DNA of 64,000 bases from Chrysaora quinquecirrha (taxonomy: Eukaryota; Cnidaria; Scyphozoa; Semaeostomeae; Pelagiidae), in assembly GCA_014526335.1 (NCBI GenBank), contig JACTAT010000316.1, positions 124,001 through 188,000 on the forward strand, in the 5' to 3' direction. The notes beneath the pieces are model-generated. The model was not told the origin of the DNA. It saw only the letters and a list, made by a program, of their open reading frames with translations, and did not search any database. Numbering within the stretch: the stretch's first letter is position 1; every line of letters starts with the position of its first letter. A program made the position numbers and the translations under genes. Below, in pieces: positions 26,225 through 53,500 of this stretch.

Positions 26225-26398
26225 ATTCTATTGAATTTTCAAACTGTGATTTACACGAAACTTAGATCTTGTATATAGCTTTGTTTTGAACTTTTAATTA
26301 AAAAAAAAAAGAACACAAAAAGTACAAAAAGAAGTTTAAAAGTATCGGCAGTTTATTAGAATTTGATTTAGGGGTAACTGTTGTTTTGGAGGGGGGAG

Positions 26399-32046: not shown

Positions 32047-32766
32047 AATAGGGGTGTTTCTTTTTGTGACAGGTTCATTTGTGACACTATTTCATTTTGT
32101 GTCTTTTTTTGTTTCTTTTGCTACGTTGTGTATTGCCCTGTATGTTTGCTGACAAGTACATTTGAATACTTAGCTTGTTTGCATTATATCCAAAATCTCT
32201 TATCCAAAATCTCGAACAAAACCAATACATGAGAAAAACACTAACATTGAGACTTTCATGGGTTTGCTAAGAGATCAAGATCTTTGCGTGTGCACTGTAA
32301 TTGAATGGACCTTCTCTATTTTGAACACTCTCTTTCCAGGCAGAAAAATAACCAAGAAAATGTTCTTCTAGCCATCACAGTCTGTCATCTGTTACTTCTT
32401 TGTATGGGGAGAGATTGTAGTTTCTCTTGAAGTGACCTTCGTTTATGCTAATGCTGATAAAATGCAATTTTATCACAGTTAATTGCACGAGGAGCGTGTG
32501 TTGCTTTTCTCGTAAGAATTCGACGGGATTCAAGCGAATTCTTATGGGATTGTTTAAGGATCGCATAATTGATGAATTTAGTGTGTTTGTATGAGATGCT
32601 GGAATTCAACTGTGGTTTGTATAGATTCTTTATTCTCTAATGCCAACTGGGGATTTGTGGTATGTCTTTGAATGTGCAGTTTATCATGTCTCGATGCCGG
32701 GTTTGGGCATCATTTGAGTTTCCTCAAAGCCGAAGGTGGTTGTAAGTTTTTTCGCTCTCTAAAGTC
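32047..32766. other. Probable 5' region of the DIRS-like element
   Basis: No open frame. It ends directly before the ATG of the DIRS-like first ORF, so it may hold that element's terminal repeat and promoter. I could not match it to a repeat at the other end. Confidence 0.3.
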
Positions 32767-33319
32767 ATGATGGAGAATCAAAGTTCAAAAGATACTTCTT
32801 CATCTGAGGATGTGAATTTGCGAGTGAGTAACCTGGAAAGGTCAGTCTCTATTATTCAAGAAAGCGTTCAAAGTTTGGTTAATTTGTGCTCTCAACAAAG
32901 CTCATCAGGTACGAATTCTACCGCTAGTGTAAGCTCTCAGCCTACTTTGCCTACTTCTGCTCCACCATTTGTATCTGTTGCTGCTAATGAACAAGTACAA
33001 CTGGTTTCTGGTGTTTCGTCGCAGCCTGCTCTCGGTAGCAATTTGCAAAGTGTCTCGGTATCTCAGTCAGTCACGCCCTCCTTAGTATTATCCAAAGATT
33101 GGCTGGGTTTTACGTCGCAGCTGTTTATGACTCAAGCAGGGTCTTCTGGCCTCTCTGTTGCGAGTGTGCTTCCTCCCATTCCAAATTATTTGGTGCAGAT
33201 TGTTTCAAAAAACGTATTTGTTGATTTCGTATTGCTGAGACCTTGCAATTTGATACATTTACCTCCAGTGGCGCACAGTTGTCAAAGCTAGTCAAGTGTG
33301 ATTAGAGCAGCGAGTTGAA
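32767..33319 (+). pseudogene. DIRS-like retrotransposon ORF1 (gag-like), N-terminal half
   Basis: The ATG at 32767 starts a coiled coil (VNLRVSNLERSVSIIQESV), then a Ser/Gln/Pro-rich linker, then PPIPNYLVQIVSKNVFVDFV, as in gag-like ORF1 of metazoan DIRS-type elements. A 1-bp deletion near 33264 shifts the frame; in the other frame GAQLSKLVK follows, then a TAG near 33302. The reading stops at 33319, where the KDZ transposon begins. It resumes in phase at 51327. Confidence 0.75.
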
Positions 33320-33371
33320 CAGGAATGAACCGGTCCAAAATATGGTACTTATCCACCCAGCCGTAAATGGA
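33320..33371 (+). repeat. Left terminal inverted repeat of the KDZ element
   Basis: CAGGAATGAACCGGTCCAAA followed by ATATGGTACTTATCCACCC and AGCC. It pairs with the right end at 51275-51326, about 41 of 52 positions identical by eye, the block TTATCCACCCAGCC being perfect. Confidence 0.8.
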
Positions 33372-33505
33372 TATAAAAAGAATACCGACCCTGCAAAAGA
33401 GGCCAGTTGGAAATGGTATGGGTTAGAGAATAAGAGAAAAAGAGAATTGCCAAGCTCAAGCACAGATTGCCTACTTTTTGCTGGCTCCAGCTCCAAAGCA
33501 AAGCT

Positions 33506-36500
33506 ATGGAGGAATATGATGATGATGAAGATGATAATAGTCTTGTTGTGGGAAACTTTCGACAAGTTGTAGAAAGACCAGAGCTTCGATCTTCTATTGG
33601 CTCTTTGCAGCATTTTCGACCGATCACAGACGTAGGCCTACGCCAACCAGTTGGAAGGATACAAATAGAAGCATCTACAAGTGTTGTTGCTCCTGGAGAA
33701 AGAGTGCCAATTTATAGCACATTTTCAAAACACCCGAAACTTTCTTTCAGAAGACCACCACAACGAACAGGAATCCCGCCATCAGCTGATTTCGATATTG
33801 AAGGTAGGTAGGCAAAATGCAGCTAATCAAATGTCACTAGTCTATTTTATGCTTCTCTACCATAGCATGGTTGTGCTAAGACAAAGGCAAATACCAAACC
33901 CTGAACTGACTGATTGTTGCTAATTCTGAACACAGTGAGCCTATAAAAGTTTAGAAATCAGTCTCTGCTTTCTGCTTAGTTGTACTGTTCTATTCTAACT
34001 ATTACCCATTTTTATTCAACAATAGTTAATATTACATGTCTAGACTGCAGTTTGCTGAATAAATACAAACGTGCCTGAAGAACAATGACTGGAAACCAGT
34101 CATTTTCACTGTCATTGTCATTCCCAATATATACAATTGCAGGTGAGACTGGTTGCCCTTTGCATTCTTACATTTAATGCAATTTCTGAATTTTCTTTTG
34201 CTTTTGATTCATGAAAGATTTGTTTTGTTTCATTTCTAAAGATAGGTTTAGCCATGGGAAACACGGAGAGTCCTTCTAGGGTTCATTAATAGCTAAACAC
34301 TGAACTTTTAAAGGCAGATCTGCAGTCTGACAAACTTTGTATGACTGACCCAAGACCCAAGTTAAAGTATTGTTGCTTTTGGCTTCATATACTGTACTTG
34401 GGTATTGGGTCTTGTAACTGAAGAAATCAATCAAGATGTCTTATTTACTCTTATTGCTGTATCCTTGTGGTAATGGTAAGATTGATTTCTATTTTATTAA
34501 GCAATGATCTTATTTGTAAAATGATCTATAAAAATGTTCTCTGCATAATAGTTAAAATATTTCCTCTCTTTTCTGCAAATGTATGCATAAATACCATCCC
34601 TCAAAATTTTTGTTCTTGAACACAACTTTTCTCAAATTTTATCATAGATGAAGTCCAAATGGATGGAGGTATTATTGAAGATGATGACCTTGAACAAATC
34701 ACGGATAGTAATGATAATGGAAACAATGCTGCTCTGGATACTTATAGTCTAACAAAAATGTAAGATATGGTGGTGTTGCTGAAGTAAATGTGTTGAATGA
34801 CTTAGATGGTGTATGTATAGCTTTCTTTTATTCAGAAATCTTGGTCTCAAAATCATTTAGGCACTGGGCGATAAGAGACCAAATTTTGGTACAAGATTCA
34901 GTCCTCTCAGTTTAAGGCACGCGCGCGCCTCCACACGCTCCTCGTCTGGTCAAGACGCGCGTAATTTCACGCACCTCGTTTCTTGTGATTCCTTAAAATC
35001 ACGCTTCTCAAAATTTTTTAGTGATCTTTGAATAAAAAATATCTTGATTCTGGTAATCACATAATTGATATTTAGTAGCTGTCATTGAATAAAAACAGTC
35101 CAACCGCTGATAGATTGATGATGTTAATCATCTGCGTTGTGTGTTTACGTGGTTTGCGTAGTGATATCCGAGTTATTTATATAATATCTCCTACAGTTAA
35201 GCTTTATTTGCAAAAACGAAGAAAATCTGGCCTTATTCGGTGTCGTCATGCTGCAGGCGCTGGATCTCAAGTGTGGAGAAGCGACAAGAAAAAACGATTC
35301 GAAGAAACTTTTAGGAATAATTCTCGTCGATTTTTCATCATCGAATCCCAATTCTTCTGATTCTCTGTGTGATGTTGAAACTGATTAATTGGAACTGTTT
35401 AGATGAACTGGGTCATTTGTTAAAAACATCTTATAAAAAAGTCAAATAATGCGTCAATGTGAGAATATGTCAAAATCACCGTTTCTAAAAAACGCGCGCC
35501 TAAATATATCAAGGTGCGTGATCTTCCACGCACCCTCTAAAATTCTCACGGAGAGGCCTGAAGATTGCCAATATAGACAAAATACCATATTAAATTTTAT
35601 GTACAATCTAATTCATTAGCTAAGCAAGTAAACAACATTAAAATAGTTCAATCTTTGCCATTTGGAAGAACTATAATTGCTTAGGTTGGGTGAGATTGAT
35701 AGTATGGGCGATTAGAGACCAAATTTTGGTACAAGATTGCCAATATAGACAAAATACCATATTAAATTTCATGTAAAATCTAATTCACTAGCTAAGCAAC
35801 TAAACAACATTAAAATAGTTCAATCTGCGCCATTTGGAAGAACTATAATTGCTTAGGTTGGGTGAAATTGATAGTATGGGGGATTAGAGATCAAATTTTG
35901 GTACAAGATTGCCAATATAGACAAAATACCATATTAAATTTTATGTACAATCTAATTCATTAGCTAAGCAAGTAAACAACATTAAAATAATTCAATCTGC
36001 GCCATTTGGAAGAACTATAATTGCTTAGGTTGGGTGAAATTGATAGTATGGGGGATTAGAGATCAAATTTTGGTACAAGACTGCCAATATAGACAAAATA
36101 CCATATTAAATTTTATGTACAATCTAATTCATTAGCTAAGCAAGTAAACAACATTAAAATAGTTCAATCTGCGCCATTTGGAAGAACTATAATTGCTTAG
36201 GTTGGGTGAGATTGATAGTATGGGCGATTAGAGACCAAATTTTGGTACAAGATTGCCAATATAGACAAAATACCATATTAAATTTTATGTAGCATCTAAT
36301 TCATTAGCTAAGCAACTAAACAACATTAAAATAGTTCAATCTGCGCCATTTGGAAGAACTATAATTGCTTAGGTTGGGTGAAATTGATAGTATGGGGGAT
36401 TAGAGATCAAATTTTGGTACAAGATTGCCAATATAGACAAGATACCATATTAAATTTTATGTACAATCTAATTCATTAGCTAAGCAAGTAAACAACATTA

Positions 36501-39500
36501 AAATAGTTCAATCTGCGCCATTTGGAAGAACTATAATTACTTAGGTTGGGTGAGATTGATAGTATGGGCGATTAGAGACCAAATTTTGGTACAAGATTGC
36601 CAATATAGACAAAATACCATATTAAATTTTATGAAAAATCTAATTCATTAGCTAAGCAACTAAACAAGATTGAAATAGTTCAATCTGCGCCATTTGCAAG
36701 AACTATTATTGCTTAGGTTGGGTGAAATTGATAGTATGGGCGATTACAGACCAAATTTTGGTACAAGATTGTCAATATATACAAAATACGATATTAAATT
36801 TTATGTAAAACCTAATTCATTAGCTAAGCAACTAAACAACATTAAAATAGTTCAATCTGCGCCATTTGGAAGAACTATAATTGCTTAGGTTGGGTGAAAT
36901 TGATAGTATGGGCGATAAGAGACCAAATTTTGGTACAAGATTGCCAATATAGACAAAATACCATATTAAATTTTATGTAAAATCTAATTCATTAGCTAAG
37001 CAACTAAACAAGATTGAAATAGTTCAATCTGCGCCATTTGGAAGAACTATAATTGCATAGGTTGGGTGAAATTGATAGTATGGCAATTAGAGACCAAATT
37101 TTGGTACAAGATTGCCAATATAGACAAAATACCATATCAAATTTTATGTATAATCTAATTCATTAGCTAAGCAACTAAACAACATTAAAATAGTTCAATC
37201 TGCGCCATTTGGAAGAACTATAATTGCTTAGGTTGGGTTGGGTGAAAATGGTAGTATGGGCGATTAGAGACCAAATTTTGGTACAAAATTGCCCATATTG
37301 ACAAAATTCCTTATCAAACTTTCTATTCCTTTTTTTTGTCTTACACAGCGATAACGTTCTTTTATTCTCTTTGTCACTCTATTTTTTCTAAGTTGAATAA
37401 TTTTTTATAGGAGAAAATCATTGAAGAATTGTAACTCTTTCAAGCACTTCAAGCAAAATCAATTTTTTTTCTTCATGGCACACAGAGATTCTCATTCAAG
37501 ACTTTGACGCTTCAACCAAATCCTTAAAAGTATGGGACGGAAATCATTTATATGAAATTTCCGTATTATCTATTTAATATGGAAATTTATTTTCAGTTAA
37601 ATGTTGAGAGGAATAATGCATCCTTTTACTTTTTACATTATTAAAATTGCATCCTTTTTACATTTTAGCAAAATCAATTTTGCATAATCAAGAGAATTTC
37701 AATGAAATTCACAGATACTGTAGGTTGGCAGTACAGCTGCTCATGTAATCAGGCCTTGTGTGATTTGCTAGACAGGTTATCTAGAGAGATTAGTCAGAGC
37801 TCAGATGGTAATTTTGTTTCTTTATTTTCATTTGTTCTTGAAATTAATTGTCAATTTATATCGCTTTCATCAAATGCAGATAGATAACCAAATACTGATA
37901 TTCCACAGATTTCCAGTCCATGTTGCTGCGGAGATACCAAGAATGTTTGCACGTCAGAGTCTGCAAAAAGGTCGTTCGTATGTGGGATTTGCAGAATGGT
38001 ACTCTGCCAACAACAGATGGTGGTACGGCTGCATGAATTGCTATTGCTTTATTTTTAGCTTGATAAATTTTTATATTGATTTTGGTGAGGTAAATAACTT
38101 CTTACTATAGCTTCTTACTTACTTGTTACTTAGCTATAGCTTCTTGACCTTCTTGAAAGGGGTTTTGTTTCATGTTGAACATATCTAAATCAACGTGAAC
38201 ATCAATATCAATATTAATACAGCATCCTTTCCCCTTTCCCCTCTCCTTGTCCAATTCTGCTGCATATTTATTAAATGACAAACACTTGCAATGCTATCTC
38301 ACCTAAGTTGTATCTTTTACATCATAGATGATATTCACTGGAACTATCAGGTTTGTTGCAATGTACTCTGTACTCTACCAATCGATTTTCTCTACAGCAT
38401 TTTCACCTTAAAGTTATTGCAACTTCTCTAATGCTTTCTATACCTTTGCCGACGGTTCACCAGGAGGCATATTCGCATATAGTTATAATTTGTAAACTGA
38501 AATGTATTATTAGAACATGTAGCTAGTTAAAAAGAAAAAATTGGCAATTCTATTTAAATCTAAGAAATATGTTCAGCCCATGTTGTCGAGAAGGGTCCTT
38601 CCTGTGTGACATCTTCAACACAGTGTTATCTTGCACAAAATTGTAAACTTGCGTTTATGATTAGTTCGTTTGCAGTTGTTTTGTTCCTGCATGTTAATTG
38701 CAATGTTAGCTATTATTTTTTTCTTGAAGGAGCTCCCTACTGCTGTCAACTTACCATTTTCTAGCAAGTCACTTGTTTGTGTCAGGCAACCAGATCGACA
38801 ATTTGGGGTCGTTGGAGTTGACAGACGGGGTTTTAAATGTTTATCGTGTTCAGACGGACGACGCTCTTGTCAGCACATTGCAGGAATACAAAAGCTCCTT
38901 GATATGGAAACTGTACCATCCCCCGACTGTCTGGTTGACATGGTTGCCGCCCATGAGTCTCTAAAGTCTTCATTCCCTCAAACATACATCCGACAAGCTG
39001 TTTCTACAAAACCTATTCATATCAACCCTCTTCGGTCACAGCGCTTTATTTTCAGTGGAATGTTGAGAGGAATAATGGAAGAAATCAATCCAGATGATTA
39101 TAGACTAGTGCCAGATTTTTCTAATGCAGTATGCCCGTCCTGTAACAGCGAGTCTGTTGTGCAATGGAGCCAAGACAGCAAAAAGCTTGTCACTCTAAAA
39201 AACATCATAGAAGTCTTTGGTAGGTTTCCGTTTCAGTGTTTCGCTAACCACTAGGAGTTTGTCATATTAAGAATACCTTAATGATTCTTTTCACTGCTTT
39301 GTAACAGTTGTAAAGTAAATGCAGTGTCTAGGAAATGTCAACTTAATTTCAGGAAATGTAATTTTTACACAATGACCAATAGATAAGTGTTTCAGATCGT
39401 TGAAGAAAAAGTGCTGTGAATTTCCTAGACCTCTGAACTGGAAAATAATTAATGATCCACACCAAGAAGAGATAAGTGTATATCATCGACCTGTTCTGCG

Positions 39501-42500
39501 CCTGCTATCCTTCGCTAACGTCTTGAGTTCTGTTTAGTAAATTGTTGGTCTTGTTTTATGTACGAACAGACACAAATGTCTTTTTGATACTACAATTTAT
39601 GTTAAATGTCTGTTTATCAAAATTTCAATAGCGATGAGAAACAATTAACTTTGTTCATCCAATCAGTTCCCTTCAGAAAATGCGGTAATCTGCAATGTTT
39701 AAGAATTGAAAACTACGATGGCTCTTTGAAAGGAATACTTAACATGGGAGAGTTCCTTGTTGGACATGATGTTCTGCGCGACTATTTGCATCATTTCATA
39801 TCTGGCGACAGGTTTGCAGATAAAGTTTTTAGAAATGTTATGTTTTCCGGAAGCGTTTACCAGCTTAGTGGAAGCTCATGAAAGAGGTACAAATACTGAA
39901 TAGATAGTTGAATCCGAGGAACCTGTATGCTGGAGTCTTCTCTGTCCAAATCCAAGATTTTTTTTTCAAAAACACATATGATAATGTATGCCTTGCCTTC
40001 TTACTTAGAACAAATGAGCCCAGGGGATACTCCCTATTTTTCTATAAGGGTGGTCAGTGTCTATATTTTATTAGTTAGAGTTTGGAACAAGCATTAGAAA
40101 TCCCATGTGACTAGATCCCCTAGATACGTGATACGTTTAGAATTAACATCATTGCTCCAAAAAGTCACGTCACCGGTTCAAAATTGTCGAAAACCTTCTT
40201 GTTATCACCTAGTACTGTTAGTAGCGTTAAAGTAACGAAAGTGAAAATAAAATACCTGCTGAACTTTAGATGAACATTTGCAATATTCTTTCCTAGTCAA
40301 AGCTTGAACAGCCACCTCAGTGCTTGGAAGTTGAACCTTTCAGCTGCTGGCTATGAGACAAAGCTCTGTCTTAATAATCAGCAATGGAGAATGTGTTGGT
40401 ACTCGTTCCTCAACCTTTTGGATATAAATGAGGTAGATAGCTTTATGTGTGATAAATGTTGTCAGTATCCAGAAGTCATACTGTGCGATGCAACATCTCT
40501 TGCCTTTCGAAGAATCTATGCAAGACAAATCGAGCTTCAAGAGCAAAGTCGAGATACTCAAACATTGACTGGAAGATAAGTATTTCTGCGAATATATAAT
40601 CTGTCGTCAAATAAAAGGAAATGTTATTCGCCTTATGAATACGTAATAAGTATCTATTGCCATGATGGAAGCTCAATTCAGCTGTAGCAAGCAAGCGCTC
40701 CCCTGGGGATGTACACAATCATGAGCATGGCAGGGGGTTCAGCCCCGACATTTGCAGACACTCACTAAAATATACCCAGGGGGGTACTCATTAACTTTCA
40801 ATACGGGGGGGTCCATGCCAATATTTGGGGTCCAAAATCTTAAGCTTATTCAATATTTGGGGTCTGTGATTTATAACATGGACAAAAATTCAATATTTGG
40901 GGTCCACAAATCTGAAGGAAGAATCTTGCGATTTTGTGCGATTCATTACAATGACCCATCCAACTGGCAAGAGCTTATAAATTGTAAATTGTCACGAAAC
41001 TGGTCGCCAAACCCGAAAAAATGTTTTAGGTGTCCAAAAATAGATACCAATATTTGGGGTCTCCAAAACATTAAACTCAATATTTGGGGGTCTGCAAGGA
41101 AATAGTGGCATGGACCCCCGGTATTGAAAATAAATGAGTAACCCCTGGGAAAATATATATCTGCTAATCTGCTAAAGTTGCACCCAGTGCCAAGAAAAAG
41201 TTACGGTCACACGGTCATATTGAATGGAGGAAAGTCAACCAGAGCAAAAGAAAATCTAATGCCACGCCCAAGACACGCCTATTTTTCATTGTCTAGTGAG
41301 GAAGGTTTTCAGCTAGGGGTATTTTTGTCTGGAGGAAGGTTGGCCACTTTTCTGGACTCTGGTTGCACCCAAAAAGTAAATCAACAATAATTACAACATC
41401 AAGTCATTGACAGTAAGAGCGAGATTTTTCCAAAAACCCAATCAAATACATGAAAACTGAAAATTTCAATAAGCGAAGCCCCCAGTCAAAATATCATGCA
41501 CTCCTCGGGGGCGCTTGAATAATGCAATGCGAAGGGCCACGTGTTTGCTAACAGCAAGCGATTGTGAATTTTCATACGTACTCTTAGGTGCCTAATTGCC
41601 GTCCCCCGCTTATTATTTTTTTGAAAAAAACTCCAACCCCCCGCTCTTATTAGACCCCCCCGCTTATTAAAGTTGGCATTGCTATTGATGTGGATATTTT
41701 TCATTTAACTTTCTCTGACGTTCTTGGTGTGAAATTCCACTTGTTTTCTCTATTCGTTTGGTTAGAACCATGGATTTCCTTAGCCTATAAGTACTATAGG
41801 GCCCCTCACACTGCGTTTCAGCAGTTCCTTTACAAAGTTTGTCAAGCAAAGTCCGACCCTCCTGTTTATTCCGACGACCCATTTTGATTAGATGCTGACT
41901 GCAGTTCCAGCCCCCCGTCTATTCCAACCCTCCCCCAGCAATTAGACACCTAAGAGTATCTGTAAGAACTTTTTTGTTGCTTGTAAACCCGATTTCTGTA
42001 GTGCGTGTTTTCATTGTTGTAGAAGTGCGTGTATTTTCTAGATTATATCTTTTCTAAACGTCCAACTTTCCATTCTACTAAATTCAGGGCAAGAGTTTTC
42101 ATTGGCAGTCCAGAAATTAGAAGACTGTTGTTCAAGTTCTCCAACTGCAAAGAATTAAAAAGAGACGACCGGGAAAAGCTTGATAACTTGCTTGAACGAG
42201 AATATGGCTGTCTACAAAAGGTCTTTCTCGAATGTGAAGAGATGTATGCCGGTGCGGTCCATATACCAACCGGTGTATGGGCATTTTTTCATTGTTTAGC
42301 TTCCGTATCTCCTGTTTGTTCATATTTCCCATTGTCAGAAACACTTCGCAGGATCATTGCCAGAATCAGTAACGGCTTTTTGATACGACAAGACCCGGAA
42401 AGCTTGATCCAGTTGCAAATTTGTGCACCGATCATTTTTGCTGCAATTACTGCCTTACCTTCTGTCTCATTGTCACAAAATTGGCATGAGCTATTTGCCT

Positions 42501-44163
42501 TATTAATTAGCAGATCTGAAGTGATTTACCTGCGAGAAAAGCATGACCTTGGGCCCCCAGCTCAAGAAGATGAAAGTCAGAGGTTCTCTTTTTTCCCTGC
42601 TTGGCCCTCACTCTGTCAAAGAGGAGTGTACATAAAGGATAATGCCAAAAAGAAGCCCAAAGGTTATTGCAACAAAGCTTACCCTGGGCATCCTAATTTG
42701 ATGCCTGGTCTTTTCACTTTTTACTGCGAGCATGGTAAGCAAGTAGCTTCTTTGCCTTGTGTAAACACGGCATTGCCTTGTGTAAGCAAGCTAGATTTTT
42801 GGTATGCTAGTTATGTCTTACAATGTATGAAGTTTTTGAAGGGTTTGATTTTTTCATGCATGTTGGCCCAGACTGATGTGTTTTGCACTTTGTACCCTTT
42901 TTGTATCGATCCGGCACACATTCTGACACTCCCGTTTATTTCGACCCCCGCCAATTAGATCCTGAATGCAGTTGTAGCCCTTCGCATATTTCAATTTCAT
43001 GCATTCAGGTACGTAAGTACTATGTCCGATGTTCATTGCTTTATCCTGCTCGATAGTTTGTAAACCAACATCCAGTACCACATTTGAAACAACAAAAGAT
43101 TTTTCTCAATTTCTTCATCTTCTTGTTCTTATCGTTCTTACAGGGATATGCTATGGCTTTGAGATAATGGAATGCCAAGAGTCTCCAACTATACCCTTTA
43201 GTGTACTAAGAACAAGACTTCCTTCAGGTTAGCTGCTTTCCTATGATATTCCTGTATGAGTAAAAATTAGAGAGATGTTTCAGTCAATGTTTGCAGCCGT
43301 GTGGAATTTGCTGTTACCCCTGATGTATTGACGTGCGTGTTATACTAAGTAACTCTTTCTTACTCTTCTTATTAACTTTTCCTTGGACACTGTTATGACA
43401 AGATAAAAACTCTATTCAATACTGTATTTTAGCGCCGAAAGCAATCATCTATGACAACTGTTGCAATCTGCACCAATACTGCCTTAACAGAGACCCTGGC
43501 TTCTTCAAAAGCTGCAGCTTCTTAGTTGATCGATTTCATTGGAAAAATCACACAGGTGCGTCTTTTTTGCTTTTAAGATGTGACCAATAGTAAAGATGAA
43601 GAAAGGGTCTGCAAATAGTTGCAGATGAGGCTTGACCGTTTCGCTGGTAATGTACTTTAAGATTTTGGATAATCCAGGGTGGTAGGAAGTAAGGGCCTTG
43701 GTATAATTTGGCTAGTGTACGGCGTCTGTAGCGTTTGCTAATATCTAGGGAGAGAAAGGGGGGGGCAAGAGAAATAGGCTAATCGGCCAAAAATAAGATT
43801 GTTGCATAATTACAATTTCATATTACAGCAACATTGTATTATAACAGTAGCAGCTAATCAATAGAAAATAAATTTATGTGTTAATGCAAACAAAGAATTT
43901 CATATAGGGTTCTCTTATCGTTTAACTTCCCCAATACTGCAAGAACTTGTTTGCAACAGGCAATTTAATTTTATTTCTCAGGTTGCGAGGATTGTTACAA
44001 CATTTCAATCCATCCAGAATATGAAAAGCTGAATACTCAAATCAACGAGCAGCAAAATTCAGCTTTGAAAGCCTTGAGGAATCAGCTTTCCTACATGGCA
44101 CCAACAAATTTTATAAAGCACTGCATGCTGTTCATGTTGTTCCGCAACAAAAGCAAAAAATAA
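33506..44163 (+). CDS. KDZ-type transposase, about 11 exons, one damaged splice donor
   Basis: Exons: 33506-33803, 34648-34759, ~37672-37807, ~37904-38025, ~38733-39219, 39667-39811, 40297-40575, 42088-42734, 43144-43227, 43433-43555, 43982-44163; about 870 aa. Exons 6-11 join in perfect phase; borders of exons 3-5 are uncertain. Landmarks: a SWIM/CxC-like cluster (CLSCSDGRRSCQH) in exon 5, NMGEFLVGHDVLRDYLHHF in exon 6, MCDKC and CDATSLAFR in exon 7, YPGHPNLMPGLFTFYC in exon 8, IYDNCCNLHQYCLNRDP and VDRFHWKNH in exon 10, and INEQQNSALK in exon 11. CDATS, IYDN and NEQ are the likely acidic catalytic residues. The exon 7 donor reads ATAAGT instead of GTAAGT (40576). The human HMGXB3 protein contains a domesticated relative. 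The enzyme should cut and paste this element. Confidence 0.8.
34860..37300 (+). repeat. Left ~172-bp satellite array (about 11 units)
   Basis: Units begin gggcgattagagaccaaatt, ttggtacaagattgccaata and end caattgcttaggttgggtga-like sequence; starts near 35706, 35878, 36050, 36222, 36394, 36566, 36738, 36909, 37081 and 37257. The first unit (34860) is split by a 662-bp insert. The array fills the intron between transposase exons 2 and 3. Each unit holds the palindromic word ACCAAATTTTGGT, close to TCCAAAATWTGGTA in the terminal inverted repeats. Confidence 0.9.
34899..35560. mobile_element. 662-bp insert within the first satellite unit
   Basis: Starts CAGTCCTCTC and ends GAGAGGCCTG (inverted), with direct repeats AAGATT at 34893-34898 and 35561-35566. 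The interior carries unusual CG-rich words (cacgcgcgcgcc, cacgcacc) in opposite orientation near both ends, suggesting subterminal inverted motifs. No transposase is encoded. The superfamily is not assigned. Confidence 0.65.
40775..41149. mobile_element. hAT-type MITE in a transposase intron
   Basis: A 375-bp insert with ends CCCAGGGGGGTACTCATT and the inverse AATGAGTAACCCCTGGG-like right end, flanked by a perfect 8-bp duplication AAAATATA (40767-40774, 41150-41157), as for hAT elements. The interior repeats caatatttggggtc several times. It lies between transposase exons 7 and 8. Confidence 0.85.
41581..41956. mobile_element. TA-flanked MITE in the same intron
   Basis: Ends CTCTTAGGTGCCTAATTG and its inverse CAATTAGACACCTAAGAG, flanked by TA on both sides, consistent with a Tc1/mariner-like non-autonomous element. 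Internal C/G-runs (cccccgcttatta) are also seen in a diverged relative near 42905-42965. Confidence 0.75.
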
Positions 44164-44204
44164 CTACATGAAACCTGGGTGGACGGAGCTTCATTATAAT
44201 GTCT

Positions 44205-45000
44205 TAGATTTGCTAGACATACAGTAATTACCGTCGTAATAACAGATTGAACTATTTTAATGTTGTTTAGTTGCTTTGATTATGAATTAGATTTTACATA
44301 AAATTTAATATGGGGTTTTGTCTATACTGGCAATTTTGTACCAAAATTTGGTTTCTAATCGCCCATACTATCAATTTCACCCAACCTAAGCAATTATAGT
44401 TCTTCCAAATGGCGCAGATTGAACTATTTTAATGTTGTTTAGTTGCTTAGCTAATTAATTAGATTTTACATAAAATTTAATATGGTATTTTGTCTATATT
44501 GGCAATCTTGTACCAAAATTTGGTCTCTAATCGCCCATACTATCAATTTCTTCCAACCTAAGCAATTATAGTTCTTCCAAATGGCGCAGATTGAACTATT
44601 TTAATGTTGTTTAGTTGCTTAGCTAATGAATTAGATTTTACACAAGATTTAATATGGTATTTTGTCTATATTGGCAATCTTGTACCAAAATTTGGTCTCT
44701 AATCGCCCATACTATCAATTTCTTCCAACCTAAGCAATTATAGTTCTTCCAAATGGCGCAGATTGAACTATTTTAATGTTGTTTAGTTGCTTAGCTAATG
44801 AATTAGATTTTACATAAAATTTAATATGGTATTTTGTCTATATTTGCAATCTTGTACCAAACTTTGGTCTCTAATCGCCCATACTATCAATTTCACCCAA
44901 CCTAAGCAATTATAGTTCTTCCAAATGGCGCAGATTGAACTATTTTAATGTTGTTTAGTTGCTTAGCTAATGAATTAGATTTTACATAAAATTTGAATGT
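44205..45000 (-). repeat. Right ~172-bp satellite array (about 4.6 units, inverted)
   Basis: The same unit as at 34860-37300 but in reverse complement, with ccaaaatttggt.tctaatcgccca at about 44333, 44505, 44685 and 44858. It begins about 40 bp after the transposase stop, so it lies between the two convergent genes. The last partial unit fades near 45040. Confidence 0.9.
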
Positions 45001-45039
45001 GGGTATGATGGGCAATCTTTGACCAAATTTTGGTCACAA

Positions 45040-46579
45040 TCAGAAATCCCGCCAAGAAATATTGATAGCTACCTGAAATTGCTGAAATGTAAAATTAAAA
45101 CCATCTGCAGTAAAGCGGTAACAAAGAACATGTTACAAAAATAATACAGTTTACAAATCAAACATGAAATTATTAGTCTGTTTTAAATATGGGCTTCAAA
45201 AGCAACTATTCTTCTCGCGAACATGATTGGAACCCTATCTTCCACGTGTAGTAGGAAAGCTAAACACTAGAAAAGAAAAGGAAATGAAATAAACCTATGC
45301 TCCTTTTGATTTCGCTTCTAATTTAATGAAAAAATTACTGTACAATGTCCCTGATGAACGACGTTTAGAAAAAATTAGTTAAACAATGTTTGGTCTTCTT
45401 CTACCAATGCTTCAAGAAACGTTTTTTGAAATATTTAATTCAGTTGCAATACTCTTTTGTTAATCTTTAGTTTTAGTATTACAACTAGCAAAGAAAATGA
45501 TGTTAATCATCAAGTAACCTGTACAACATGTTCAAGAAATAATAGTGAGGTATAGTTGTAATCACATTGAAGCAATTAACATAAAATCTAACCTCTGGAG
45601 ACAAGGCATTTGTATTAAGCGTCGTTCGAGCAGAGATGCTGATTGCTGAATATTTTGCAATTTTAGAACTGCGTTGCATTATAAATTCTCCAAGTTTCTG
45701 TTCCTGTTGAAGGAAAATATTGTTCAGATTTCAAGCTAAGAAAGTCAACCGCTAGTGCTTACAACAAACACAAAGCACAGAACGGAAAAAGTGTTACATT
45801 GGTTCTTTAACAGAATGTTCACCACGGAAAATCGATTTAACAGATCCTTAAACAAGAAGCAATGAATCAATATTATCAACAAATTTGAATTTACTCAAAT
45901 TACATACCGTAGTTCAACTTACCGTATCATCTGTGAGAAGCCACATAGCATTAAACGAGATATCTCTCAGGGCAGCATATTTGTGGCAGTCAAACAGCTT
46001 CACTCTTGGAGAAAATATGGACCCCGCTACTATGCTTGCAAAGTATTTCTACGAAAAAATCAAACACGTTATCTTGTGTGTAATTAAAAAATCTTAACGT
46101 AATACAAACAGAAACACTATTTTATCGAATTTGTTTAACCCTTTTTTAACGTCAATGCATATAAAAATAACGAAAATTGCGGGGGCGTAACAGCACTGGA
46201 GGTTCTGCCATCCATCTTTACGGCGTTAGATGAAATTTGAATGACACCGCACACAAAATTGAGATAATATTTTTCACCTTACATTGAGACGTTGTTGGCA
46301 ATGGCATATGAAAGGGAGGGCTGGAAGGTGCAAGTGCCTCCGGGAACCAAAGTACAGAAGACACAAAATTGTGAGATATAGTAGTAATAAAATAGTTCAA
46401 AAAATCAACGTTTGACTGTAAAAAGAATAGAGAGGGCACAATTCTATATCATTCAAGCATAGTTTATCGCAGACATTTTGCTCATTTTCGCAAACAAACT
46501 CTTATGCCTTGTTGGTGTCCAGAACCAGGATTCTTTACTAGATCAGCTGTAATACAATAATATATTAACAATTCTTACT
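45040..46579. other. Spacer between right array and OTU gene
   Basis: No convincing coding or repeat structure. It contains the 3' flank of the minus-strand OTU gene. Confidence 0.5.
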
Positions 46580-49500
46580 TCAATAGCCTTCTCGTGCTTC
46601 TGAAGCATCTTCTTCAGTGTTCTCTTTCATTCGAATGAAGTCAGGCTGTTCACCAGCGCAATAAACATGGTAATCTCGTAAACAATATTTGCAGCAGATC
46701 TTCTCATCACATTGAACACCAAAGTTTCGGCAACAAAGCTTTCCAAGAAGGCAAAATCCAAAAGCATAAGTAGCTGATCGATCCACAGGTTCAACTAGCG
46801 GCACAACATGATTTACGGGACCATTTGGCGTAGAAGGCACCCAAAGAACAAAAGCTTTCGATTCAAATCTTTCATTGACATTATGAGGTACCTCTTCTCT
46901 ACTTGAAAAAGATCTGATGTTGACTTCCAGAGCAGCAGAAATTATAAACAAATACATTATGGCTGCGTAAAAAAGGCATAACAAATCAGAATAAAAATCA
47001 ATATAATAGCAATAATGTCATCTTATGGTAATGGAAATGAAAGATATCTTCAACATACAGGCATATCTGTAGACATTCTTTGCATTTTGAAGCAACTCTT
47101 CACGCAATGTTGCCTTCAGTCGCTCTTCCGAAGAAATTACACCCTGAAACTGAGCTGCCACATCATCTGTGGTGATGTGGTATGCCAGATTTGTCTCATG
47201 TGTACTCAAGTCATGTAGCTAGAGGCAGAAAGCAGATATGTATCAATTATCTTCCAACTTACAATTTTGTATAATATTGTAAATAGAGTAGTTTCTTTAG
47301 TTTAAGCTATGATTTTTGTTTGAAAAATATTTCATTCATGTGTTCAATGAAAAGTTCAGTGATGAAATATTATCAATTGTATCAACAGATTAATGGTAAA
47401 ATCCAAAATATTGAGATCAGCATGGTTTTCCTGTTTGGACAAAAATTATTGTAATAATAGCAGATAACAAGAAACAAAATTGCAATGAAATGTAGCTTAT
47501 TCATGTACAACCAGCTGCAATCCTTGTTACACAAGGTTTTTGCCAACTGCTTTGAGCACGTTAAGCTTTCAAATAATTTAAGAATGATACCATTCCGAGA
47601 GTTTCATCCTCAGGGTTTACTCCGTAGCGCAAGGCAGCTAATTTGATCCATGCCCAATTCTTCTCACTGGAAAACAAAGTGACAGACAAAGATCTGTACA
47701 GGCATGTTCCATCCCCTTTGACTCGCACTGGCTCTTTTCCCATTGCAGCAATCTCCTCTGGTACTAGATGCCGATACCTTAAAGCAAGAGTAATTTTCAA
47801 GAATCTATCCTTAACAAAGTGTCGTAGCTTACAAACACAACACATTTAATGTTGAGATGACAGGGACTGGATGGGACTTGAACCCATAACTCATTTCCAC
47901 ATTTAGAAATGTGTGTTGGCTTTACACTACCAGCCTTTACCTTGTCATCAGTTTCGAAAAATTGCATAGCTACTCCTGATGTATTATGAATAAGAAAACA
48001 TTAGCATATTTATGACATGAATAGGTAACATATCAAACAACTGAATGGCAATTAGCTTGATATGAAATGTGCTTTGTAAAGGAATACGCAATGTCTCAAA
48101 ATGGGAAAGTAACCAAATCTATATGTTACAACACTAAAATCTTATCCAAAAGACACCCAGTTATTTTTATCGCCAATTATATAACTCAGGGTCCAGAGAG
48201 GATTGATACATAAATCAATATACAGTCTTATGAACTATGAATCAGAAATTCCATTTCCGAATGCTAGACATTGCTTTTCTCTTCGAGTTAACTAGTGGTA
48301 GAGCTGAAACGGCATCTCCTGATCAAAGAATGTGACACTGATGAATTGTTGTGCGATAAAGTGACAAAGTTTCCAAATGGAACAACAGGAGAAAATGAGA
48401 AATCTTAATTTTTACAACTCACCATTCTTCTACCATCTCATTTCTAATTTCACCAATCACCAGATTCATGCAGGCTCTTGGACAGACATCCAGAGCTTTC
48501 TTCAAGTCAGCATAGCTCTCTACTTCAGAGACTTCACCCAAAAAATGCTCACACTCTTCTGGGGTCCAACTGTAGTTCTAAATTCAAAAGATCATTTTTC
48601 ACCAATTTAATTTTGTTCATAATGGCTAATTAACTCTGCTGTGTTACTCAACGTAACACAATCATTCCAAGTTAAACAGCCTCAGGGCATTTCCAAATTT
48701 ATCAAAATAGGATAAAAATCATTGATTGAAAGTCAAGAAATAAGTCGAAGAAAGAATGCGAGTTGAAGATCAAGGGCCAGCTTGTGTTGATCTATCATTG
48801 TCTAAGACCATTACAAGAATTTACGATTGACTTCACATTCAGCACAATTGTAATGTTTAGACCAAAAGTTGCTTTATGTTTCGGAAAAGCCTGCAAGGCC
48901 CACGTTTCTCAGTTTACAATAGATCAAAGTAAAAAACATAGACTTTATCATGGACCTTTGGCTACGAAAAGGCAGAGAAATCAGCTATGTCTGTGGCTTT
49001 CACCTGTCAGTAGCCAAAGCATGTTGCCTCATTCTCGCAGGGAAACTTACCTCAGACATCGATATTAAATGCTGTAAAAGCACACTGTCTCTAGGGTTTT
49101 CTTCATCAAAGACACTGCTTCCTTCTCCACTGTTATCCGCATCTGCGCTTCCAGGTCTTTCATTTTCAACATCTTCTTCCTCTGGCAAAGCACCACCACT
49201 TTCTGGATCAGTACCAGCATTCTCTTCATTTGCCTCTCCACTACCAGCGTTATCCCTCTGCCTAGGCTGCTCAGCTTTCTTTTGCTTTGCATAATCCATA
49301 CAATGAGAAAGAATCGTATCTAGGGTGTCCACGTCAAAGCGTGGCCTTTTATTGGGCGATTGAAAATTGACTGACTCTGGTCACCATACTGGACGGATGG
49401 AAGCTGTCCATGTTTTATTTTTGATCAAGTCTTGATAGAAATTTAAATAACATTTATCAGCAATATTAAAACAAAGGCATCATGCACTTTCGACACAACA

Positions 49501-51129
49501 TGGCAATAGGGTATAGGGTGAAAGGGTATAAACTTGGTACAATGTTTCCACTCATTCTTCTTAGCTAAAAAGAAGTTTTTTAGCAATCAACATGCAATTC
49601 ATTAAATAATGAACATAACTGACTTAAACAATGATAACTTGTAAGAAGGGAAAAAAGGATTTGCTATACAAGAACATACCATTTCCCAGAACTGCTTGAC
49701 AAATCAAGGTCCTTTTCTCGTCTACAGGACATTCATTAATAATGTCATGCCGAAGAAGCTTTTGCATGACAAATTCATCAAGATGTATATTGTAAAAGCA
49801 CAATCTCAAACACATGATAGCAGCTTATTCTAAAATTTTCTTGACAGAAGGCAAAGGAGAATTTCATGCAGAATAGTCAAAAACAGAAAGAAGCTTTAAG
49901 AGACTTGAACTTCAAATTTGGTTGGGAGAAACCTTTTTTGGATTTTTACAAAGGGGGAGGTTGCCTGTAGTAAAATGGTACAATGATATTTTCCAGGTTA
50001 GAAAGATTTCTCCATTTAACTCCCCTTTTCCCCTTCATCTTCTCTAGTTTCTTATGTAAAATACGTGTGAAACGATATAAATTATGTGTGAGTTATATTT
50101 AAAGCACAACTACCCATGATCTAAAATAATTTATAAATTAACAAAGCTCAACAAATTATTCGAATTGTGTTAATTTTCTAGTATTTCAAATACAATACAA
50201 TTAGTCAGGCTACCTTTTTCTAATGATTCTTCAGCAGGAGTCATATTTTGCTGTTGTTGCATTGCAGCAATGGCTGCTTTTTTGAATTCAGCCTGTACAA
50301 CAGGGTTATCTGCGAATTCTTTGAATGCAGAATGACCTGAAAGGCAGAAGACAATACAAAATAGAAAATATGTAATAATGGAACACTCTACATGAATAAG
50401 AAATTTTATTGACTGAATGGGATTGAAAAACAAATCTTACCTGTCCATCGCACATGCACATTACCATCTCTGTCATTCAGCAAAGACAAAGCAACAGTTG
50501 GGGTGTGTGTCTTTACCATCCACTCGTTTAGCTGGAAATTAAGATTTACAAGAAATAGTCCTCCATAGAATAAAAAATGCAGCTATTTAATAAAAGAGCA
50601 TTGTCTCGGAATGTGGCAATTAGGAAAACTTATCAGTTGAATGAAGATTTTTATGACAGGGATAACATATTCACATCAAGTATGAAGAACTAACCATTGT
50701 TTCCATTCTTTTGAGAGTTCTTGCATTTGTCCTTGTTCTCTCTCTCCCGTCCTTCAAAAATTCTTTTCTTTTAGCACCACGTTTACGCTGAGAAGTATAG
50801 AAATAATTAAAAAAAAAATTTTAATTATCACATATTGGCTTAATGGATTACAAATTATTGGACGATCTTGTACCAAATTGGGTCTCAAATCACCCAGACA
50901 TCCTATTTTGCATGACTTGCATGATTTTTCAGATTTACTATGGAGATTGAAATAAAGTAATGTTGTTCAATTGTTTAAAAACATTTGTAGATTGTAAGAC
51001 GTTACCCACTGATATTCCAGTAGGCCCATCCTCAGCAGCAGCAGCTGCAGCTCCTTCTCCTTCTTCATTTACCAACTCTTCCATTACTTCATCTATATCT
51101 GGGTTTACTATTTGCTCTTCTAAATCCAT
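46580..51129 (-). CDS. OTU-domain cysteine peptidase, ten exons, intact
   Basis: Exons from the ATG at 51129: 51010-51129, 50695-50787, 50441-50531, 50214-50336, 49680-49823, 49051-49319, 48423-48577, 47591-47777, 47059-47218, 46580-46923. All junctions agree in phase and give 561 aa with no stop. Exon 8 has the OTU nucleophile motif VKGDGTCLYRSLS (Cys catalytic); exon 10 has GPVNHVVPLV, placing the catalytic His. A Cys-rich end follows (CDEKICCKYC). The N-terminal half is acidic and Ala-rich, then charged; it is unassigned. OTU enzymes usually remove ubiquitin. The gene starts inside the right TIR and converges on the transposase, so it is cargo of the KDZ element rather than host sequence. 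Its intactness suggests selection or recent activity. Confidence 0.8.
47855..47945 (-). repeat. tRNA-derived fragment (SINE or tRNA pseudogene)
   Basis: On the minus strand ATGGGTTCAAGTCCCAT forms a perfect T arm with a B-box-like GGTTCAAGTCC. It is preceded by an anticodon-arm-like hairpin (CACATTTCTAAATGTG) and a D-arm-like GGCTGGTAGTGTAAAGCC. The anticodon loop is not standard length and the acceptor stem is unclear, so a functional tRNA is unlikely. It lies in the OTU intron between exons 7 and 8. Confidence 0.4.
50858..50905 (-). repeat. Lone copy of the satellite head in OTU intron 1
   Basis: Read on the minus strand: tctgggtgatttgagaccca followed by atttggtacaagatcgtcc. This matches the head of the 172-bp unit (gggcgattagagaccaaatt...). 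It is a single, diverged copy about 420 bp from the right terminus. Confidence 0.6.
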
Positions 51130-51274
51130 TTTAAATCGCTGTCAATTTGTAACTCGGTATTTTACCTGAAAGCAAACTAGTTAGCTGGTTCTTAGTAAGA
51201 AATCAAATTCACGTTGATGGGATGGGAAGCCCTGTCTCATAAGCCTCGTTCCAATATGAAAATTGTAGTAAATG

Positions 51275-51326
51275 TCCTTTTTTGGCTGGGTGGATAAATA
51301 CCAAATTTTGGACTCATTTATTCCTC
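51275..51326 (-). repeat. Right terminal inverted repeat of the KDZ element
   Basis: On the minus strand GAGGAATAAATGAGTCCAAA, then ATTTGGTATTTATCCACCC and AGCC. Partner of 33320-33371. Followed on the plus strand by the AGTTGAA duplication. Confidence 0.8.
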
Positions 51327-51841
51327 AGTTGAAGCCCATTCGTTCTTTTGTGGATTGGGCAGAAGCATGGTGTGTTTACGCTAGCATTATCAATCAGGTT
51401 AACAAAATTAAGTTGGGGGATCTTCTGTCATATTTTTTGTTGATTGCAAGAATGACCAGAGACACCCAACATCTTGGTCTCAGCTGGTTGGAATATGACC
51501 GCCACTTTCGTAAGAAGGCAGCTGGTAATGGCAACGTATTGTGGGGAGAATATGACCTTTCTCTCTATATGGGACATGTTTTCCAGTCAAGCAAGCCAAC
51601 GAATTCGAATGCCTCCACTAGCGCTAGTAGTGGGTCTGTTAGAATCTGCTATAGCTGGAATTTCCGTTCCTGCAAGTATATGCCTTGTAGATTTCGTCAC
51701 GTATGCTTGCGATGTCAGGGTCGTCATCCTGCTAAAAGCTGTAGTACATCGCTGGCCGTGAAACCGGATTCTGATGGAGCTCAAAAAGGTCAAGATCTCC
51801 CTCTCCTCCTTCCTCGAAGAGTAAGAGAAATAAATGACTAG
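51327..51841 (+). pseudogene. DIRS-like ORF1, C-terminal half
   Basis: Resumes with LKPIRSFVDWAEAWCVYAS and GLSWLEYDRHFRKKAAGNG. It ends in a Cys/His cluster (CYSWNFRSCKYMPCRF, RHVCLRC, then HPAKSC) like that closing ORF1 of metazoan DIRS elements. Directly continuous with the half at 32767-33319 once the KDZ element is removed. Confidence 0.8.
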
Positions 51842-51864
51842 AGACGGATGCAGATTTTTGTTCT

Positions 51865-52650
51865 GTGACTAACTTTGATTTCCCTCAGATTTGTTACATT
51901 ACTCCATTGAAGTTATACATGTTGGAGTATTATTTGGGCCTTTTCTCTCATATGGATAGTAATTGGCTTTTGCAGGGTTTAAAGGACGGCTTTAGGATAG
52001 GTATTGAAGCTGATCACCTGGAATTCTCTTCAAAAAACTGTCCTTCTGCGTTAAGACAACCAGATATTATAGATAAATATCTGTTGGTTGAGTTAAGTTA
52101 TGGATCAATTGCTGGGCCGTTTAGTGAGCCACCTATTGATGGTTTGGTTGTAAATCGTTTCGGAGTAATTCCAAAATCAGAGCCCGGGAAATGGAGACTT
52201 ATAACTGATTTATCTTATCCACATGAAAATAGTGTCAACAGCCAAATTCCATCTGCTCTGCTAAAATGGAGATTTCGTTTCCGGAGGAAAAGATTATTAA
52301 AGTTAAAACTTTATTAGAGGAATGGCATAACCGTAAAACTGGGACTAAAAGAAAACTCTTGTCTTTAGTTGGCTTATTGCAACACTGTTCGCAAGCTATA
52401 CCCTTGTGCAAGGTATTTTTGCGTCGTCTCATTGATCGGGCACATTCAGTGAAGGAATTACACCATTTTGTTCATCTTACCCTGTGGGAGAGGGACGATT
52501 TGAACTGGTGGAATCTTCTGTTCCAACGATGGAATGGGCGTAGCCTGTTTATTCTCGCTGGTTTGGAGTCTGGAGTCAGCAGAGAAGCCAATGTTCCGCA
52601 AGCAAGTGCCAGCAGATTGGCTGAGACACTTGGTGTTTCCACCTTGGATT
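51865..52650 (+). pseudogene. DIRS-like reverse transcriptase / RNase H, internally deleted
   Basis: The RT start is clear (VVNRFGVIPKSEPGKWRLIT, DLSYPHENSVNSQIPS), ending near 52255. The next residues (MEISFPEEKIIKVKTLLEEW) belong downstream of the RT palm, so the catalytic core was deleted at about 52260. RNase H-like sequence follows (LLQHCSQAIPLCKVFLRRL, ERDDLNWWN) with a stop near 52650. A non-autonomous copy. Confidence 0.75.
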
Positions 52651-53500
52651 AAAAGTGGCAGCAATTATTAAAAGAATCGTTAGCTAAGACGACGCAAAAA
52701 ACTTATTCATCTGCACAGAAACAGTTTTTAAACTTTTGTGTTAAATTCAACGTGGTTCACGAGAATGGCTCACTGCTCCCGTCTTCAGAGCTAACTATGC
52801 TTCGCTTTATATCATCGTTAAGTGAGTCTCATCAAGCGTCCACTATTCGGGTTTATCTTTCTGCTGTAAGATCGTTGCACATTATGCATGGTTATTCTGA
52901 TCTGATGATTAATTGTTGCCGCATACCTATGGTGTTAAAAGGTATCAAAAGATGTGGGTCAAGCAACAGGCAGCCTAAAATGCCGATTACTCCTTTAGTT
53001 TTAGCTGCTGTTAAGTCTCAACTTGATTTTGATACTTATGAAGATAGAATGTTTTGGGCTGCTTGCTGTACAGCGTTTTTCGGTTTTTTAAGATCTGCGG
53101 AATTTACTACCACAAAACAGAATTTGAGTGATAATAGGTCAGCAGCCATTCCCTTCGAAAATTTTTCTTACTCTGTGTTTTTCTAAGACGGATCAATTCG
53201 GACAAGGTTGTAGGTTAATTTTAGCCCGTTCTGAGTCTTTATTTGCCCGGTAGAAGCGTTAATGTCTTATTTGTGGCGGCGGGGTAACAAAGAGTCTAAG
53301 TTTTTTCAAAAGTCTAAGTTTTTTCATAAGCTTAAATCCAATTTGAAATTGTGTGGCTTTGCTGGTAATTATATGTTACATAGTTTTTGGGTAGGAGCGG
53401 CTTCAACTGCCGCAGCTTTAGGCTTTCCGAAAATATCTTTTAAAAGCATTGGGTCTCTGGTCTAGCGACGCTTACAGCTGCTATATAAAGTTGCCAGCAC
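52651..53500 (+). pseudogene. DIRS-like tyrosine recombinase
   Basis: Starts LAKTTQKTYSSAQKQFLNFC and continues with STIRVYLSAVRSLH and FWAACCTAFFGFLRSAEF (catalytic Arg region). After frameshifts near 53180-53260 the C-terminal part appears with HSFWVGAASTAAALGFPK near 53380. The usual HxxR box is HSFW, so the second catalytic Arg is lost. The terminal Tyr region is frameshifted after 53460. It would integrate the circular cDNA of the element. Confidence 0.75.

Follow-up and report, generated by a model that had tools for sequence, protein, structure and literature searches.

The DNA analyzed here, a 64,000-nucleotide stretch of the jellyfish Chrysaora quinquecirrha (hereinafter the window, to which all positions without a contig name refer), corresponds to positions 124001-188000 of one contig (C320) in a 328-Mb assembly of 740 contigs. 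Within it, an element of 18,007 bp (33320-51326) separates the 5' part (32746-33312) from the 3' part (51334-51841) of ORF1, an open reading frame (ORF) of a DIRS-like element, both parts being on the plus strand, as judged from the reading frames and from comparison with an uninterrupted copy on contig C211. The element carries a multi-exon transposase gene on the plus strand, an OTU-like peptidase gene on the minus strand and two tandem arrays of a 172-bp unit. In all likelihood, it is a two-gene cut-and-paste transposon bounded by terminal inverted repeats (TIRs), belonging to a lineage allied to the KDZ transposons and inserted in the DIRS-like ORF1.

Ends of the element and the empty site

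The left TIR (CAGGAATGAA..., 33320-33374, plus strand) and the right TIR (...TTTATTCCTC, 51272-51326, minus strand) match without gaps over 54 bp (33321-33374 against 51272-51325, 81% identity) and, with the outermost base included, constitute imperfect 55-bp inverted repeats with 44 of 55 positions identical. The element starts with 5'-CA and ends with TC, and the heptamer AGTTGAA is present immediately outside both ends, at 33313-33319 and 51327-51333. In a scan of an 8-kb block on each side for perfect 7-bp duplications combined with matching ends, the combination 33320/51326/AGTTGAA ranked first (18 of 24 end bases), with one alternative pair listed besides it (15 of 24). The inverted repeats of about 50 bp at 33320 and 51326 and the flanking duplication, both proposed in a first-pass annotation made from the sequence alone, are thus recovered, and the ends are indeed near base-precise, being shared to the base with other copies in the genome.

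When the joined DIRS flanks were used as a query against the genome, six matches were obtained, namely four halves at two insertions on C320 and two uninterrupted places, C211:601429-601758 (95% identity) and C171:352695-353011 (81-82%). The C211 copy reads AGCAGCGAGTTGAAGCCC, with a single copy of the duplicated bases, and is an exact empty site of the kind that the first-pass annotation had proposed to seek in another DIRS copy. Its ORF1 is open through the joint, ...KCDKSSELKPIRSFVDW... (...KSSELKPIRSF...). Because C211 is uninterrupted across the joint, the two halves belong to one DIRS-like element; an origin from two different elements, which had been considered as a potential objection, is not what was found. 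The resumption of ORF1 in phase (SEL, then KPIRSF) holds for the joint, through which C211 reads, but not for the window copy, whose frame is already interrupted before the insertion: a 10-bp stretch found in both C211 and C171 is missing, and a TAG precedes the joint in the same frame, so that no open frame reaches the insertion.

Other copies in the genome

Genome searches with the two ends, in which the numbers of matches are lower bounds, yielded at least seven matches for the left end (six left ends plus a cross-match to a right end) and at least six for the right end (five right ends and one cross-match); the terminal bases are identical across the six left and the five right ends. Both ends are present at three sites, on C320, C105 and C343. 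On C320, an inverted duplicate of the element (C320:203150-224518) includes the DIRS flanks and therefore represents the same insertion seen twice. The 15-kb copy at C105:63320-78456 lies between 8-bp duplications (GTTTCTTA/GTTTCTTA); a copy at C192:720569 shares its flank and is 99.2-99.4% identical to it over two long pieces, so that C105 and C192 are probably two haplotypes of one site. The third copy extends over 38 kb (C343:632097-670573) and is flanked by TTCAAAG and TCCAAAG. Two additional contigs, C442 and C387, contain left ends only, with about 1 kb of flank common to both, and no right ends were found in the stretches examined; two further transposase matches are located on C713.

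Thus, two sites beyond the window share both ends and interior, as expected for a mobile unit. The comparison of termini, which covered the same-family transposase copies traced to both ends (C105, C343 and the C320 duplicate, with the C713 copies left out), revealed no copy bounded by different termini, an outcome that would have been at odds with the first-pass annotation. The TIRs, the target-site duplication, the empty site and the several copies are the features of a class II TIR DNA transposon. The duplications (7 of 7 bases on C320, 8 of 8 on C105 and 6 of 7 on C343, with an empty site for the first) are of the 7 or 8 bp by which KDZ elements are recognized. The length of about 8 bp that the first-pass annotation cites for KDZ transposases applies to C105 but not to the window site, where it is 7 bp, and this variation among sites is itself a point against the interpretation offered here. 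All the copies that could be traced are damaged: the C320 duplicate lacks transposase exon 10, C105 and C192 lack exons 10-11, and C343 lacks exons 3-7.

Several rearrangements were observed around these copies. The inverted duplicate belongs to a large inverted duplication within C320 (C320:190001-229359 against window 28705-58959; 97-99% identity over the longer pieces) that covers the DIRS element together with the insertion. This is either a genuine segmental duplication or the result of a head-to-head joining of two haplotypes, and it contains a tandem repeat of the transposase stretch corresponding to about 38543-42929. The C105 copy contains a 5-kb insert with Gypsy-type frames (C105:64431-69435, recognized by eye) that is absent from C192, and the 38-kb copy encompasses a 6.4-kb array of an 83/340-bp unit (C343:660750-667141) that is not matched by the 172-bp unit.

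The transposase gene

We propose 11 exons for the transposase gene, with splice sites read by eye. Exon 1 (33506-33806; MEEYDDDEDD...) is an open frame followed by GT and resembles, by eye, the N-terminus of the closest relative found, P0001 (RPEL, VPIYSTF); the phase of exon 2 (34648-34759) was taken from sister copies. Exons 3-11 are collinear with P0001, apart from one stray match (E=0.81). Exon 3 (37669-37808) contains a CSC cluster and is followed by exon 4 (37909-38003, 3' end approximate), exon 5 (38731-39219, 5' end approximate), with a SWIM-like CxC...CxH cluster, and exon 6 (39667-39814, 3' end approximate), with a CxC4-like cysteine cluster that gave a fragment profile match. The first putative catalytic Asp (CDATSLAFRR) is encoded in exon 7 (40297-40575). 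Exons 8 (42088-42734, boundaries approximate) and 9 (43144-43227; ICYGF...ESP) precede exon 10 (43433-43555), which encodes the second putative catalytic Asp (AIIYDNCCNLH) and gave a fragment match to the KDZ profile, and exon 11 (43982-44163), which encodes the putative catalytic Glu (NTQINEQQN) and runs to the stop codon. A stretch at 39376-39534 and the joint after 39841, included in a first concatenate of 751 amino acids (aa), were removed from the second one (680 aa) because splicing from 39219 to 39667 and from about 39814 to 40297 fits P0001.

Exon 2 of the window copy has a 1-bp frame disruption that is absent from all four other copies aligned (the C320 duplicate, C105, C442 and C387). 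The description of the element as complete is therefore accurate for its structure, with both ends and both genes in place, but not for its function. In four comparisons, which share history and are not mutually independent, the transposase exons have ratios of nonsynonymous to synonymous differences (pN/pS) of 0.40-0.56; aligned codons that included a stop were excluded (one for C105, none for C192, one for the C320 duplicate and two for C343). The 751-aa query produced at least 67 matches in its own genome, from the best 60 of 429 candidates scored, and those listed outside the same-family copies show 30-46% identity. In the window (40570-40580), the C320 duplicate, C105 and C192, exon 7 is followed by ATAAGT, with no GT donor; perhaps this is an unusual intron of the AT-AG or AT-AC type.

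The OTU-like gene

The second gene is convergent with the transposase gene. From its 5' end, it consists of exon 1 (51008-51129, 3' end approximate), with the start MDLEEQ; an acidic exon (49003-49380, boundaries approximate); an exon encoding YSWTPEEC... (48422-48577); an exon encoding GDGTCLYRSL, the putative catalytic Cys block (47590-47800); a further exon at about 47041-47190; and an exon encoding a cysteine cluster and the block NHVVPL, with the putative catalytic His (46586-46930). The Cys and His blocks were identified by eye. Over the Cys block, the concatenated exons match PDB 6dx5_B (E=4.5e-4), whose listed molecule name is RNA-dependent RNA polymerase and which we take to be a viral OTU domain.

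Evidence that this gene belongs to the element comes from a diverged locus on another contig, C386:2181887-2183992, where five of the six OTU pieces tested (O3-O7, corresponding to all exons but the first) are collinear at 29-52% identity and both the Cys and His blocks are kept. They lie 19-24 kb from transposase matches (39 and 42% identity) on the opposite strand, in convergent orientation, and this shared gene order at a diverged place supports a two-gene unit. At C343, and twice at C713, OTU matches likewise neighbor transposase matches of the same family. Outside the same-family copies, at C179 and eight more diverged places, only the match at C386:2182940 is within 25 kb of a listed transposase; this pairing is based on the best 60 of the 429 transposase candidates scored. 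Together with the same ends at two further sites and the empty site, the gene order at C386 upholds the earlier proposal of a single mobile unit carrying transposase, OTU-like gene and satellites.

Several observations count against the OTU assignment or the conservation of the pair. The fragment with the Cys block matched Peptidase_C65 at E=0.098 and OTU (PF02338) at E=0.18, short of the PF02338 cut-off, and the OTU concatenate gave no Pfam match. At C386, piece O2 had no match, and no convincing TIRs were found for the diverged pair. The pN/pS values for the OTU-like gene are based on three to seven changes per comparison, and the value against C343 was 1.78. A homolog search with the OTU concatenate returned none at E<=0.001 among 8000 candidates scored.

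We consider it rather unlikely that the element carries the OTU-like gene as a captured passenger that takes no part in transposition. In favor of such a scenario, the C105 and C192 copies lack the equivalent of window 43430-48275, with the Cys and His exons of the OTU-like gene, and yet C105 has both ends. However, these two copies also lack transposase exons 10-11 and hence are little informative on the role of the OTU-like protein, whereas at C386 five OTU exons have been kept beside a transposase that is only about 40% identical.

Relationship of the transposase to KDZ

Among 7787 candidates scored, four homologs of the transposase were identified: one from Rhopilema, two from Clytia and one eukprot protein. 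The Rhopilema esculentum protein (LOC135681910; 927 aa) is 43% identical over 98% of the length (E 2.8e-204). One of the Clytia proteins, P0002, which is homologous to the window transposase at E 2.7e-93, matched KDZ (PF18758; E=7.5e-6, 26.2 bits against a cut-off of 26.6) and CxC4 (E=6.9e-6), that is, 0.4-0.5 bits below the respective cut-offs, and P0003 gave a weak match to CxC4 (PF18717; E=0.0012). In a five-row alignment, CDAT and INEQ are aligned in all five rows and the YDN block in four; CDAT, YDNCC and NEQ, picked out by eye, are the putative catalytic triad. A homolog search seeded with this alignment recovered nothing beyond P0004 and P0005, a fragment of 302 aa.

Other results do not favor inclusion in KDZ. 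Neither transposase concatenate (751 and 680 aa) matched KDZ (PF18758) or reached any Pfam cut-off, and no Pfam family was matched by P0001 or P0004. A 63-aa window fragment matched KDZ at E=0.045, below the cut-off, and with the exon 6 fragment the unrelated DUF3537 (E=0.0037) outscores CxC4 (E=0.015). The structure model of P0002, with a predicted local distance difference test score (pLDDT) of 35, was unusable and was not used.

Because matches to KDZ and CxC4 come from relatives, and from the window protein only as short fragments, we describe the transposase as probably KDZ-allied, a safer label than the KDZ type given in the first-pass annotation: that label is partly supported, through relatives, but the window protein itself falls below the profiles. 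Similarly, of the SWIM/CxC clusters that the annotation cites for KDZ transposases, CxC4-like and SWIM-like clusters are discernible in the exons, but the SWIM motif in exon 5 was read by eye from its spacing (CxC...CxH) and no SWIM profile matched. An alternative that we consider unlikely is a separate superfamily near KDZ. It would agree with the failure of both the window protein and P0001 to reach any profile cut-off, and the combination of 55-bp TIRs with mixed 7- and 8-bp duplications fits neither Kyakuja nor Zisupton as described in PMC12730594. Against it, the homolog P0002 matches both KDZ and CxC4 just below the cut-offs.

Satellite arrays and subterminal boxes

The intron between transposase exons 2 and 3 contains a 172-bp tandem array of 10.2 copies (35561-37322) with ten boxes on the plus strand, and an inverted 172-bp array of 4.4 copies (44243-45002), with four boxes on the minus strand, is located just past the transposase stop. 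A box search also detected a single 34-bp left subterminal box (34865-34898, plus strand); a single right subterminal box (50865-50896, minus strand), detected as a gapped match, is kept in all five copies retaining the right end. At up to 11 mismatches of 34, all 11 boxes on the left are on the plus strand and all four on the right are on the minus strand. The number of 172-bp units differs among the copies of the element. Compared with the satellite unit, whose box recurs near both ends of the element and is similar to the right TIR, the right TIR scores 25, a value reached by none of 200 shuffles (one of 200 in the other orientation). Less favorably, the likeness of the left TIR to the unit is weak, its score being reached by 18 and 4 of 200 shuffles, and a shorter core with 5 mismatches of 25 allowed has right-side matches on the plus strand, at 45009 and at 51287 (the right TIR). 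The boxes are putative transposase-binding sites.

The two arrays enclose the transposase body in the manner of long inverted repeats, which might suggest a transposase-bearing element (about 35.5-45.0 kb) nested within a separate OTU-carrying TIR element, but this is very improbable: exons 1-2 lie outside the arrays, next to the left TIR, with a likeness by eye between exon 1 and the P0001 N-terminus; the C105 copy has the same ends, left array and exons 3-9 at a different site; and the order of the two genes is identical at C386.

Proposed mechanism and comparison with known systems

For the two-gene transposon, we envisage that a DDE transposase, with the triad CDAT, YDNCC and NEQ, would bind the TIR core CCAAAATTTGGT...CACCCA via its cysteine and SWIM-like clusters and excise the element, with target cuts staggered by 7-8 bp. 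The boxes that resemble the TIR core, of which the 172-bp arrays contain many and the region near each end a single one, could be extra transposase-binding sites that have since expanded, and the OTU-like protein might remove ubiquitin from the transposase itself or, at the break, from factors of repair or chromatin. Tentatively, and with somewhat less than even confidence, we suggest that in a KDZ-allied animal lineage an OTU deubiquitinase is a conserved partner of the transposase and that binding boxes have been amplified into mirror-oriented satellite arrays, one intronic and one 3' of the gene. If so, the element would seed satellites from its own recognition sites. For a KDZ-allied element of the animal type whose OTU gene is a separate one, the two genes, an empty site and ends precise to the base are now at hand, so that the recognition of the ends, the length of the duplication and the function of the peptidase become testable. 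The arrays are a concrete example of intra-transposon repeats resembling the terminal sequence of the same element.

Zisupton and the Dileera-type Zisupton-1_PGr have 8-bp duplications (PMC12730594), and Zisupton in Pristionchus has 18-31 exons and TIRs, with no duplication detected (PMC9297572). The window element is similar to Zisupton and Dileera in its multi-exonic transposase, TIRs and, at C105, 8-bp duplication, and differs in the 7-bp duplication, the OTU gene, the satellite arrays and the profile match obtained only via relatives. Kyakuja families are described as having 7-bp duplications, CA..TG ends and no TIRs (PMC12730594); the window element shares the 7-bp duplication and the 5'-CA start but has 55-bp TIRs and ends with TC. 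OTU or Ulp1 domains have been reported in the DNA transposons Ginger1, Helitron and Mutator, and Ginger1 and some Helitrons, including Hydra families, resemble the window element in carrying an OTU-like peptidase (PMC2836005). In Ginger1, however, the OTU domain sits at the C-terminus of a Gypsy-integrase-like transposase, whereas here the peptidase has a gene of its own, next to and convergent with that of a KDZ-like transposase. In the open-licence literature, we found no publication that combines KDZ or Zisupton with OTU, and among the papers listed for KDZ in cnidarians, none contained either name, a result that carries little weight. The closest named relatives of the transposase are the uncharacterized proteins of Rhopilema esculentum (LOC135681910) and Clytia hemisphaerica (35-43% identity), known here as proteins only.

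Other features of the window

Inside the element, on the minus strand, positions 47863-47936 gave a tRNA-like Rfam match (40.2 bits) for which ARAGORN assigned no clear amino acid; we do not accept it as a working tRNA. Outside the element, Gypsy-like gag-pol frames (21928-26225, plus strand) and a piece of a DIRS reverse transcriptase (51838-53186) were recognized by eye, and the frame at 52653-53186 has a weak match to Phage_int_SAM_4 (E=0.0029).

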